Shown here piece after piece: positions 52,183 to 56,328 of a stretch of DNA of 64,000 bases (positions are counted from its first letter, which is position 1; each line of letters begins with the position of its first letter). A model generated the notes under the pieces. The model worked only from the letters and a program-made list of their open reading frames with translations, was not told the DNA's origin and ran no database searches. This stretch comes from Aequorivita vitellina. Lineage in GTDB: Bacteria; Bacteroidota; Bacteroidia; Flavobacteriales; Flavobacteriaceae. Position numbers and translations under genes: made by a program. The stretch covers positions 1 to 64,000 of the forward strand of contig NZ_JAIRBA010000012.1 of assembly GCF_022008365.1 (NCBI RefSeq). The letters run 5' to 3'.

Positions 52183-53913
52183 ATGGTCAAAAAATTAAAT
52201 TTTATATTATTTCTTTTCGTTGGACTGACTGTTATGGCTCAAATTCCGAAGGATGAAGTTTTACTTGATAGCAGTGTGTTTCCGAAAGAAAATGTAAAGC
52301 TTGTTGTAAATTCAAACGTTTTGCTTGCTGGGGAATTACTTCAGTATAAAGGGTTTATCCTTAATGCTTCCAAGAAAAAAAGTGCGCTGAGCAAAATACT
52401 GTACGTTTCATTGCGAAACGCGAACGATTCTGTAGTTTTCAACCATAAACTGAAAGTTGAAAACGCAACTGTAAATGGAGATTTCTTTGTCCCTTCCAAC
52501 TTAAAAACAGGGATTTATAAGCTGATTGGTTACACTAATTTTTCAAAAAACAATATAAACGATGCATTTACCCAAGTGAATATTTTCATTATAAATACGT
52601 TTGTAAAAAGTGAAGTAGCCCCCGCTGCAAAAGAGACCGTTGAAATTGCAGCTTCACCCGAAAAAGTTGGTGATGTTTTAACGAATAAAGCTAATACCAA
52701 ATCACTTAAAATAAAACTGAACAAACAATCTTTCGGCCTGCGCGAAAAGGTGACTTTAAATATAGAAAATACCGATAATAACGATAACGGAAGCTATGTG
52801 CTTTCTGTTCGAAAGGTTAATCCGGTTGAAATTATTGGAGAAATTGCAAAAGCATCTAAATCTAAATCTTCGGCAATGTTTTACGTGCCCGAGCTTCGTG
52901 GCGAACTCATTTCGGGTCTGGTTGTTTCAAAACAAGACAATATACCTGCGGCGAACAAGGAAGTGGCGCTAACCATTCCCGGTGAAGATTATATTTTTAA
53001 AATTGCAAAAACCAATGCGCAGGGGCGTTTTTTCTTTTCGGTAGATGAAACCTATAATGCTGAAGAAAGTATTTTACAATTGTATGGCAATGAAGCGTAT
53101 CGCAGTGCGTACAACTTGGTTTTGGATTCAAAAGACTTCAAATTAAATGAAGAAGAATACAATTTAAAATTAGACAAGCAATTGAAAGATTGGCTACTGG
53201 AACGCAGCGTGCAGTTGCAAGTAGAGAACGCTTATTACGATACAAAAAGAGATAGTATTTTAACAAAAAAAACAAATACAGCGTTTTACGATAATTTGGG
53301 AACAGTCTTTTTATTAGACGATTACACGCGTTTCCCTACAGTTAGAGAAACTTTTATTGAAGTGGTTACGCTTGCCGCCGTAAGAGGCACTGGCAGCGAT
53401 ACAAGGTTTTTAGTTTACAATGCATACGACCCAAATAGAATAGCGAAATTCAACAGTATAGACCCATTGGTGTTGATGGACGGAATGCTGGTACAAGACT
53501 ATTCTGAATTACTAAATTACAATGCGCGCAATATAGAAAGTGTGCGTGTTGTAACTGAACCTTATCGGTATGGCCCAAAAATTTACAGTGGAATAATTGC
53601 TGTGGAAACTAAAGAAAAGGACTTTGTTCCGAGGCATACAAACGATTATGTAGCAGAGATAAATTTACCACCCGCTGTAAAGAATAAAAAATATTATCGT
53701 CCAGATTATAGCGATAAAGTTCAACTTTCTAGAATACCCGATTATAGGGTTCAATTACTTTGGCAACCAGAGATAAACCTTTCTAAGGAGGGATTTACTA
53801 CTTCATTTTATACTTCAGATGTTTCGGGAGTTTATGAGATTTTAATAACGGGATTTTCTAAAAATGGATTGCACATTCTCAATAAATATTATTTTAAAGT
53901 TTCGAAAAATTAA
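52183..53913 (+). CDS. Secreted macroglobulin-like (MG2) and plug-like protein, receptor operon
   Basis: 576 residues from the ATG at 52183, 2 bases after the DUF4249 stop; an earlier start at 52123 would overlap that gene. Signal peptide ends at VMAQ (about 19). MG2-like strands follow (LAGELLQYKGFILNA, KTGIYKLIGYTNF) and a middle carboxypeptidase-like part. The C-terminal third shows a TonB plug-like fold (VLMDGMLVQDYSELL, YSGIIAVETK) without any barrel. It ends the operon of TonB receptor and DUF4249 lipoprotein. It may be a partner of the receptor on the cell surface. Not a transporter by itself. Confidence 0.78.
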   Translation: MVKKLNFILFLFVGLTVMAQIPKDEVLLDSSVFPKENVKLVVNSNVLLAGELLQYKGFILNASKKKSALSKILYVSLRNANDSVVFNHKLKVENATVNGDFFVPSNLKTGIYKLIGYTNFSKNNINDAFTQVNIFIINTFVKSEVAPAAKETVEIAASPEKVGDVLTNKANTKSLKIKLNKQSFGLREKVTLNIENTDNNDNGSYVLSVRKVNPVEIIGEIAKASKSKSSAMFYVPELRGELISGLVVSKQDNIPAANKEVALTIPGEDYIFKIAKTNAQGRFFFSVDETYNAEESILQLYGNEAYRSAYNLVLDSKDFKLNEEEYNLKLDKQLKDWLLERSVQLQVENAYYDTKRDSILTKKTNTAFYDNLGTVFLLDDYTRFPTVRETFIEVVTLAAVRGTGSDTRFLVYNAYDPNRIAKFNSIDPLVLMDGMLVQDYSELLNYNARNIESVRVVTEPYRYGPKIYSGIIAVETKEKDFVPRHTNDYVAEINLPPAVKNKKYYRPDYSDKVQLSRIPDYRVQLLWQPEINLSKEGFTTSFYTSDVSGVYEILITGFSKNGLHILNKYYFKVSKN

Positions 53914-53962
53914 CATATTTTGTTAAAATTTTTGCATAAATGTTAAAATATGTCGCATAAAT
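53913..53962. repeat. Tandem 20-21-bp repeat and inverted repeat before the 57-aa gene
   Basis: GTTAAAATttttGCATAAAT (53922-53941) repeats as GTTAAAATatgtcGCATAAAT (53942-53962). It also includes the perfect inverted pair ACATATTTT (53913-53921) / AAAATATGT (53945-53953). Could be a regulator site. Confidence 0.5.
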
Positions 53963-54010
53963 AATTTATCTTTCATTTTAATTTAACTGAAATTTTAAAT
54001 TTAAAAGGTT

Positions 54011-54184
54011 ATGCTTCATTGGAAAGCGACATATATAATATTAGCCATTGTCTTCGGAGTTATTGGTTTTATTGGTATTGGAGAAGAAGGTGGTTTAGAG
54101 CCAGCCAAATATATTTGCGGGATTTTTATAATTTTATTGGTAACAACTTGGGCCACAGAATTTAGCGGAAGAAAACGCGGATAA
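54011..54184 (+). CDS. 57-residue membrane protein, DUF1328-like
   Basis: A small frame from the ATG at 54011, with hydrophobic segments at about 8-24 and 33-47 separated by a Gly/Glu-rich turn (IGEEGGLEPAKY) and a basic end (SGRKRG). The layout resembles DUF1328/YtjA proteins (WKATxIILAIVFGVIGFxGI). It has an upstream repeat region and is followed by the TPP riboswitch. No clear partner. Confidence 0.62.
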   Translation: MLHWKATYIILAIVFGVIGFIGIGEEGGLEPAKYICGIFIILLVTTWATEFSGRKRG

Positions 54185-54248
54185 TCTGCTGTTAAAGTTT
54201 TAATAAAGATTATTTTAAATCAAATAATTTCAGTAATTTTATTTCATT

Positions 54249-54336
54249 ATCATATCGGGGTGCTTAAGTTTTAAAAACAGCTGAGAATACACTCGTAAAA
54301 CTTCAAAATGGATAATGCCAACGGAAGGAATATGAT
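54249..54336 (+). ncRNA. TPP riboswitch (THI element), orphan
   Basis: The conserved core is present in order: CGGGGTGC (54256-54263), GCTGAGA (54280-54286), TGGATAATGCCA (54309-54320) and CGGAAGGAA (54322-54330). P1 closes with ATCATAT (54249-54255) and ATATGAT (54330-54336). P5 TGG/CCA surrounds the conserved ATAATG and P4 pairs CTTC with GAAG. P2 is 4 bp with one wobble and P3 is AT-rich. A terminator follows at once. No plus-strand gene lies downstream for 1.3 kb; prfB is on the other strand. Weak -7 box TAATTTTA at 54234-54241. Known elements of this class turn off thiamine genes when TPP binds. Confidence 0.85.
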
Positions 54337-54339
54337 TTG

Positions 54340-54383
54340 CAAAGGGAACTTAGATTTTTTAAATCTTGTTCCCTTTGTTTTTT
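54340..54383 (+). terminator. Intrinsic terminator of the TPP riboswitch
   Basis: CAAAGGGAAC (54340-54349) pairs with GTTCCCTTTG (54368-54377), with an inner stem AGATTT/AAATCT, and is followed by TTTTTT (54378-54383). On the minus strand there is no T-run after the stem, so it works in the riboswitch direction, not as the prfB terminator. Confidence 0.88.
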
Positions 54384-54412
54384 GTTTCAATTAATTATTG
54401 TGTTCAATTCTT

Positions 54413-55520
54413 TTAAAGCTCATCTGAAGCTTCCGGCTGCCCACTCATCATTAAATAAGCTTTCAAAAAACCATCAATTTCGCCATTTAACACATTGTCT
54501 GTATTTCCGGTTTCGTGGCCGGTACGCACGTCTTTCACTAATTTATAGGGGTGTAAAACGTAATTGCGTATTTGTGAGCCCCATTCAATAGCCATCTTGC
54601 TGTCTTCAATTTCGGCGCGTTGGGCCATTTGTTTGCGAAGTTCAATTTCATAAAGTTGCGATTTCAACATTTGCATAGCCTTTTCCCGATTTTCTAACTG
54701 GCTGCGGGTTTCACTGTTGTGAATAACAATTCCCGAAGGGTGGTGGGTAAGGATGGCTTTGGTTTCAACCTTGTTTACATTTTGTCCGCCAGCGCCGCCG
54801 CTTCGTGCAAAATCCCACGATATATCGGCTGGATTGATATCAATTTCAATAGTGTCATCTACCAATGGATAAACGTAAACACTAACGAAACTGGTATGCC
54901 GCTTGGCATTACTGTCGAATGGTGAAATGCGTACCAATCTGTGTACACCATTTTCACTTTTTAACCAACCAAAGGCGAATTCGCCGGCAATCTCTAAGGT
55001 TACCGTTTTAACTCCGGCAACATCGCCCGCTTGAAAGTTGAGTTCTTTTACTTTGTAATCGTGTTTTTGAGCCCACATTAAGTACATGCGCATTAGCATT
55101 TCTGCCCAGTCGCAACTTTCGGTGCCACCAGCGCCGGCGGTAATTTGTAGCACCGCGCTCATATCATCGCCTTCATCGCCAAGCATGTTTTTAAATTCAA
55201 GTGTTTCAATTGCGCTTTCGGCTTTTTCAAATGCCGCATTTACTTGCTCGGGAGTGCCTTCGCCTTCTTTTTGAAATTCAAGTAAAATTTCGGCTTCTTC
55301 GGTAAGTGTTTTGGCTGTTTCGTAATCGGAGACCCATTTCTTTTTGGTGCGCAGAACCTTCATAAACGCTTCGGCTTCTTGGGTATTGTTCCAAAAATTG
55401 GGGTCGAAAGTTTTTTCTTCTTCGTTGGTAATTTCTACTTTTTTTCCGGCAATGTCAAAGATAGTGCCTCAAAGCATCTAACCGCACTTTAAGGTCTTTT
55501 ATTTGGTCTGTTGAAGTCAT
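54413..55520 (-). CDS. prfB: Peptide chain release factor 2, with programmed +1 frameshift
   Basis: Translation starts at the ATG at 55520 (MTSTDQIKDLKVRLDALRHYL) and meets an in-frame TGA at 55457-55455. At TATCTTTGAC (55463-55454) the ribosome must slip +1 at CTT-T to read GAC, and the frame then runs DIAGKKVEITNEEEKTFDP and on to 54413, for about 368 residues. The main frame has the release-factor GGQ motif RSGGAGGQNVNKVETK and the tail AYLMMSGQ. The slippery site equals that of E. coli (TATCTTTGAC) and an AGG lies at the usual place for an internal Shine-Dalgarno (AGGCAC rather than AGGGGG). Low RF2 favours the shift, so RF2 controls itself. The TPP riboswitch points at the gene's 3' end from the opposite strand. 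Confidence 0.95.
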
Positions 55521-55698
55521 ATATACAAGCCCGCAGAGACGGGAAATTTTTTAATTAAATGAATTTGAAACGAATTTTCCAGTTGCAATTGCAGCAAAAA
55601 TACCATTAACTTAGTGAGAAGAAAGATTTTTTCGGCTAATTTTATACTTTCTTAATTTTTGAATTTCCAAAATACTTAAATCACTTAAAACCATTATT

Positions 55699-56328
55699 AT
55701 GAAAAATATACTTTTTTTATTCGCGCTTTTATTAGGCACGACTGGTTTCGCACAAAACGACGAAGCTTATGTAAATTCATTAGTTGCACAAAAATTTGCT
55801 GAATTGGAGCTGCAACAAAATCAAGAATATTTTTTGAGGAAAGATTATTGCGATGGACAGGTAATGATTTTTAATATGCCCGATGGCAGCCTTTGCACCT
55901 CGTCATCTACCTATTATGCAGTTTATGTTTTTTGGAAAGAAAGTGACTCTGTTTTGAAAATTCAGAAATTTGACAACTGCGGAAGTTATATGCCTATTAG
56001 TATTAGCAGAAGTAAAGTTTTTGTAAAAGCAATAGCAGATAGAGATGCGTTGATGAATGGCGAAGTGAAACCTTATAAAGGTGAACAAGTAGATGAAAAT
56101 GCCTTTGGAAATATGAGCGTAGAATCTTGCCATAAAGCTTATAAATTTGTTTTAGGCGGTATTAAATTCGAAAAAAAATTCAGAGAATTTGATTTAACGA
56201 ACGAGTCGAAATATAAAAACGTAAATGCCGAACACAACAACTCGCTTCAATTGATAAAACTAGACGAATTAATTTCTGAATTGGTTAATCATTTTGAAGA
56301 TAACGGCAAATTTATTAGAGAGCGATAA
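55699..56328 (+). CDS. Secreted protein of unknown function
   Basis: 209 residues. Signal peptide ends at TGFAQ (about 19). The mature part has Cys in DYCDGQVMIF, SLCTSS, DNCGSY and VESCHKAY, which could form disulfides in the periplasm, and a charged helical end. No family recognised. The threonine aldolase ATG starts 1 base after its stop, so it may lead that operon. Confidence 0.65.
   Translation: MKNILFLFALLLGTTGFAQNDEAYVNSLVAQKFAELELQQNQEYFLRKDYCDGQVMIFNMPDGSLCTSSSTYYAVYVFWKESDSVLKIQKFDNCGSYMPISISRSKVFVKAIADRDALMNGEVKPYKGEQVDENAFGNMSVESCHKAYKFVLGGIKFEKKFREFDLTNESKYKNVNAEHNNSLQLIKLDELISELVNHFEDNGKFIRER

Follow-up and report, generated by a model that had tools for sequence, protein, structure and literature searches.

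A putative stand-alone small RNA gene derived from the TPP riboswitch in Aequorivita vitellina and other Flavobacteriaceae

We have analyzed a 64,000-nucleotide stretch of DNA from Aequorivita vitellina (contig NZ_JAIRBA010000012.1), referred to here as the window, and found on its plus strand an element of about 138 nt (54246-54383) that probably represents an old small RNA gene which stands alone, arose from a TPP riboswitch and acts in trans. Sequence comparison brought out its structure and conservation, a predicted promoter box, a terminator and the absence of a gene that it would serve, and we infer that the RNA is transcribed, binds a ligand and acts in trans on a target. In the proposed mechanism, RNA polymerase would initiate at about 54246, transcribe a TPP-type aptamer and terminate at the hairpin that follows immediately, so that a free RNA of about 138 nt results. 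Because a gene to be switched is usually missing and no antiterminator was seen, this RNA would itself be the product, and its action would have to be in trans, either through base pairing with mRNAs or through capture of a protein. The most likely task of the aptamer is to make the fold, stability or activity of the RNA responsive to a thiamine-type ligand. Many marine flavobacteria probably carry such a separate regulatory RNA, which resembles a riboswitch sensor for vitamin B1 and mostly stands without a gene to switch. To our knowledge, few small RNAs have been characterized in the phylum Bacteroidota.

When the 64 kb window was searched with cmscan, the TPP family RF00059 matched positions 54246-54346 (+) over its full length (1-105) with 55.6 bits (gathering score 54.3) and an E-value of 3.5e-8. 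This was the sole Rfam match above a cut-off in the window, and it was also the single Rfam match in 53900-55700 at E-values up to 5. The match agrees with the first-pass annotation, which had described a plus-strand TPP element with a strong terminator directly behind it and had named a search against RF00059 as a check. The TPP-type aptamer consists of a six-pair P1 helix (54249-54254 with 54331-54336, two-sided changes in all pairs among 54 copies), a P2/P3 arm serving as the pyrimidine-side sensor (54258-54294, with the CTGAGA loop strand at 54281-54286) and a P4/P5 arm in the position of the pyrophosphate-side sensor (54301-54327), which is a variant according to motif counts across copies. 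The predicted intrinsic terminator (54339-54383) begins two bases after P1 and is composed of a hairpin with the stem GCAAAGGGAAC...GTTCCCTTTG (54339-54377) and six T residues (54378-54383). A simple terminator scan of the window did not report this hairpin, probably because its stem is interrupted. The stretch 54240-54395 folds with -34.8 kcal/mol (z -2.4), and a chance origin of the element is excluded by its conservation within the genus and by the covariation of its helices. A plus-strand frame of 20 codons (54332-54394) does exist as had been pointed out in the first-pass annotation, while the suggestion that it encodes a regulated peptide is not supported, since the frame is not conserved and ranges in length from 6 to 50 codons in 21 loci of the genus.

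The comparisons below use 89 distinct copies, obtained from 122 elements after removal of 33 duplicates, with 87 copies available for promoter counts, 88 for an upstream GTTAAA motif and 84 for folds. The available text of PMC9723704 gives TAnnTTTG, located at -12 to -5, as the consensus of the Bacteroidota -7 promoter box. The sequence TAATTTTA at 54234-54241 (+) is of this type, and with the known spacing it predicts a start at 54246, the position at which the aptamer match begins. A box of the form TAnnTT[TA][AG] starting 31 to 17 nt before the GGGG was found in 84/87 copies and in 2-15/87 in ten control windows, and this predicted -7 box would give the RNA a promoter of its own, as expected of a stand-alone sRNA gene. 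A sigma-70 promoter scan of the window was unsuited to the phylum Bacteroidota. Further upstream, GTTAAA (54191-54196, +) is a candidate promoter or activator element; present between -90 and -40 of the element in 61/88 copies, compared with 2-6/88 in four control stretches, it may be an activator binding site. The promoter box also bears on the idea that the element is a 3' part of the upstream gene, namely a terminator with a structured tail that ends and protects that mRNA. Of the 89 copies, 62 have a same-strand ORF next upstream, as this idea requires, but 26 have an opposite-strand one, the identity of this ORF differs among genera, and a promoter box stands directly before the aptamer in nearly all copies; we therefore regard this explanation as improbable. 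In the window, an ORF of 57 aa (54011-54184) sits between the upstream gene of 596 aa and the RNA, and its only NCBIfam matches were sub-threshold ones to PRK13682. No Pfam family was found for the upstream 596-aa and 57-aa ORFs or for the downstream 209-aa ORF.

Within Aequorivita, the RF00059 matches represent one and the same element at 21 loci, most of which have a homologue of the 596-aa gene on the upstream side and a convergent prfB on the other. The order of promoter, aptamer and terminator is identical at all 21 loci and is found also in other genera. Mean pairwise identity over these loci was 0.896 for the element, 0.655 and 0.665 for two upstream stretches and 0.576 for the downstream stretch. 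The Rfam cut-off is exceeded by only 2 of these 21 copies and by several from other genera. The model R1, built from the 21 genus copies, matched 24 of the 28 genus genomes, 21 of them at 127.9-174.4 bits. In the three weaker matches (genomes G022, G020 and G021; loci L078, L079 and L080), the aptamer has decayed, been replaced or been cut and the terminator persists; the RNA is in the course of loss in some Aequorivita species.

Above 60 bits, R1 matched 33 of the 397 Flavobacteriaceae genomes. A wider model, R2, was built from 54 elements and matched 37 of these genomes in 26 genera at an E-value of 1e-9; two of them (G117 and G213, loci L066 and L067) were removed because inspection showed gene-linked TPP elements. 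The element is thus present in 35/397 genomes and 24/237 genera of the family, numbers that are lower bounds because large searches apply stricter filters. The 35 include one atypical case (G249, locus L069), whose terminator is altered and is followed after 26 nt by a same-strand ORF; in G330, which was newly met with R2, the box, the aptamer and the stem were all present on inspection. The window copy, which belongs to the training sequences of both models, is matched end to end with 165.0 bits by R1 and 149.1 bits by R2. Over 395 genomes of the order, R2 gave no match above 61.1 bits beyond Flavobacteriaceae, and of 23 weaker R2 matches inspected (51.7-61.1 bits), 22 could be parsed, all with a same-strand ORF behind (22/22). 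A pattern scan of named genomes yielded 83 stretches, of which 80 were entered as loci, from Aequorivita, Gelidibacter, Christiangramia/Gramella, Arenibacter, Winogradskyella, Altibacter, Ulvibacter, Lacinutrix, Robertkochia and others, with one record from an unclassified Bacteroidia MAG. R2 confirmed 68 elements in 66 of the 80 loci (71.7-155.3 bits), though many of these genomes had also fed R2; the 14 unconfirmed loci are ten from other phyla and four from Bacteroidota. Two copies per genome were observed in L116, L102, G235 and G291, lying about 3 kb apart in L116 and L102.

The helices are supported by covariation. In the alignment of 54 elements, 96.8% of pair cells were standard, two-sided changes occurred in 27 of 36 pairs, and the covariation score was 0.322 versus 0.122 for shuffles and 0.05-0.09 for slid helices; for the named set of 68 elements, the score was 0.341 versus 0.137 for shuffles, with 25 of 36 pairs. 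Both alignments share many genomes and were fitted to the model structure, which was set by hand, partly from the TPP fold, so that they favour that structure. On an unfitted MAFFT alignment of 30 diverse copies, RNAalifold recovered P2, P3, P5 and the terminator, with 12 of 20 pairs covarying, and did not recover P1 and P4. Conservation and covariation over 24 genera speak strongly against the idea that the element is a remnant left behind in recent times by a thi operon. The possibility of a relic had been raised in the first-pass annotation, and the finding of no thiC in 26 of the 28 genus genomes, that of the window included, would fit it. Against it, the element is 0.90 identical among the 21 genus members while the flanks have only 0.58-0.67, and it coexists with ordinary TPP elements, even where thiC is present: the two genus genomes with thiC carry a TPP element (79-80 bits) before thiC in addition to the stand-alone element at its own place. 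We consider such a relic highly improbable.

Ordinary TPP elements and thiamine genes were surveyed also in a wider set of genomes. By raw counts, thiC was found in 3 of the 33 element-bearing genomes (at least 60 bits) versus 82 of all 397, and a further TPP element was present in 23 of 29 element-bearing genomes. The genome of the window had no match to the thiamine pyrophosphokinase family PF04263, and it carries a second TPP element, of low score (34.7 bits), before a TonB-dependent receptor. Among the loci L226-L241 and L271-L290, many TPP elements were observed before TonB-receptor-like ORFs of Flavobacteriaceae, with a variant P4/P5 arm CCTAGAACAG...CTGTTTAGG and with scores below the Rfam cut-off, and routine annotation may therefore miss them. 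As a possible target, we considered the terminal AAGGGAA of ordinary TPP elements, to which the terminator stem would be antisense. This idea was dropped after comparison by eye in 20 element-bearing genomes, because TTTAGG closes 16 of the 20 ordinary elements and no co-variation with the stem was seen.

As had been noted in the first-pass annotation, no thi gene follows the element in the window, and prfB (54413-55520, -; TIGR00020, 438.9 bits) faces it from the opposite strand. Apart from plus-strand ORFs inside prfB, no same-strand gene is near, the next one being at 55699. The prfB gene starts at 55520 (-) and meets a stop in CTTTGA (55455-55460) after 19 codons, and the ORF list shows the gene only from 55363; this CTTTGA resembles the usual site of programmed +1 frameshifting. 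Among the 89 copies, 67 have an opposite-strand ORF next downstream, 21 have a same-strand one at a distance of 26-683 nt, and one has none; flanks were limited to 1.5 kb at many loci. As controls, we used RF00059 matches other than this element (L222-L241 and L271-L290), chosen before their downstream genes were known. For gene-linked TPP controls, a same-strand ORF was found behind 38 of 38 parsed elements (of 50, since 12 without a GGGTG anchor were dropped) and behind 19 of 20, in one control (L286) at a distance of 947 nt; an opposite-strand next ORF occurred in 1 of the 58 parsed gene-linked controls and in 0 of the 22 parsed weaker R2 matches. The position that defines a cis-regulatory TPP riboswitch, upstream of a same-strand thiamine gene that it controls, was not found for the element. 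Among the observations that count against our preferred explanation of a stand-alone RNA, a same-strand ORF does follow in 21/89 copies, and some genus members are without the element or have it decayed.

The arrangement of a terminator immediately behind an aptamer, together with a convergent next ORF in 67/89 copies, would also suit an attenuator in cis, in which low TPP allows read-through into RNA antisense to prfB or to another convergent gene. The version with prfB had been proposed in the first-pass annotation, and the data do not favour it, since no competing antiterminator was seen and the neighbour is not constant. Specifically, folds of 84 of the 89 copies gave no antiterminator signal, the terminator arm was paired with a probability above 0.9 in 81 of the 84, and the duplex of aptamer and terminator arm (-5.11 kcal/mol) was like that with shuffled aptamers (-5.18); an expression platform with alternative pairing was thus not detected. 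The convergent gene, moreover, varies by genus. Neighbour genes fall into many clusters, prfB is downstream in 20/89 copies, 17 of which come from the genus set, and while it is adjoining and convergent at 17 of the 21 genus loci, it does not adjoin at the other four and gives way mostly to other neighbours in other genera. Attenuation in cis is consequently an unlikely explanation. Under the stand-alone reading, the covarying stem with its T-run would serve as the intrinsic terminator of the RNA gene itself. This stem was observed to be unusually conserved for a terminator, beginning with CAAAGGGAA in 65/89, CAAAGAGAA in 8/89 and CAAAGGAAA in 7/89 copies, and its conservation is about that of the aptamer.

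The ligand side was assessed by counts of motifs. [CT]TGAGA, representing the CUGAGA loop of the pyrimidine sensor, is kept in 83/89 distinct copies, the CTGAGA form being absent in six, and a set of 30 diverse copies shows no variation in the TAAT loop. In solved TPP riboswitches, the GA of CCUGA and the CG before AGG contact the pyrophosphate. Counted anywhere in the element, AACCTGA was found in 0/89 copies versus 23/24 references of a thi group and 1/19 of a TonB group, and CGnAGG in 5/89 versus 23/24 and 0/19, respectively; these two groups make up 43 of the 65 control references and were formed by locus number and the appearance of the downstream ORF, the TonB receptor being confirmed by Pfam for L002 only. 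Judging from these motifs, most copies appear to be without the pyrophosphate-sensor residues, and TPP itself may not bind, a further point against the preferred explanation. Because the TonB-group elements are also without them, this change neither proves nor excludes TPP binding.

Two more specific forms of the stand-alone reading therefore have to be considered. In one, which we put forward tentatively, the element is a family-wide metabolite-sensing sRNA, whose aptamer left its mRNA long ago and now reports the thiamine state in trans to unrelated mRNAs or to a protein, the ligand being TPP or having shifted to thiamine or HMP. In the other, the sRNA gene has merely inherited the TPP fold and acts in trans, free of ligand, through its structure or its terminator stem; this is a sub-case of the preferred explanation, with which its likelihood overlaps, and we hold it possible but short of probable. 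The pyrophosphate-side motifs unlike those of thi-group riboswitches, the terminator stem conserved about as well as the aptamer and the lack of an expression platform are in its favour. Maintenance of the CTGAGA and TAAT loops and covariation of the aptamer helices count against it, and similar changes in the gene-bearing TonB-group elements mean that the change alone shows no loss of binding.

Comparison with known systems places the element as follows. With the TPP riboswitch (RF00059) it shares the P1-P5 architecture, the CTGAGA and TAAT loops and, in the window, a score above the Rfam cut-off, and it differs in being mostly without a downstream gene, in having a constitutive terminator as its sole platform and in its changed P4/P5 arm. 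In the open-access literature searched, as far as its available text extends, we found no description of a stand-alone TPP RNA. Rfp18 of Flavobacterium psychrophilum is described in the accessible part of PMC9723704 as a structured sRNA of Flavobacteriaceae, and the likeness is one of description; in genus g127, perhaps Flavobacterium in view of its many species, R2 had no match above 53.4 bits among the matches listed, a value in the range of ordinary TPP elements. According to the available sections of PMC8383071, SreA and SreB of Listeria are terminated SAM riboswitches, and SreA acts on the prfA mRNA, which offers an analogy for the trans action proposed here for an RNA made of aptamer and terminator. 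SreA, however, is the short transcript from a riboswitch that has kept control of a gene downstream, whereas our element is as a rule without such a gene. Rli55 and EutX are described in the same sections as sRNAs that contain a B12 riboswitch and sequester EutV; they resemble the element in having a riboswitch aptamer within a non-coding RNA with a role in trans, which here would be a presumed one, and differ in ligand, in fold and in their known protein-binding part, of which the element has no known counterpart. Barrick and Breaker (2007), in the available text of PMC2258182, remarked on a handful of high-scoring aptamers not located upstream of fitting genes, and suggested for them either a role with trans-acting antisense RNAs or recent orphaning. 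Their remark concerned a handful of matches, in contrast to the covarying family reported here, which with its predicted promoter and terminator speaks against recent orphaning and, within the scope of that text, helps to separate recent rearrangement from a trans-acting role. Since the family is old, covarying and, by prediction, self-promoted and self-terminated, the reading as a trans-acting RNA is amenable to tests in marine flavobacteria that grow in culture; if it is true, riboswitch sensors can turn into independent RNA genes.
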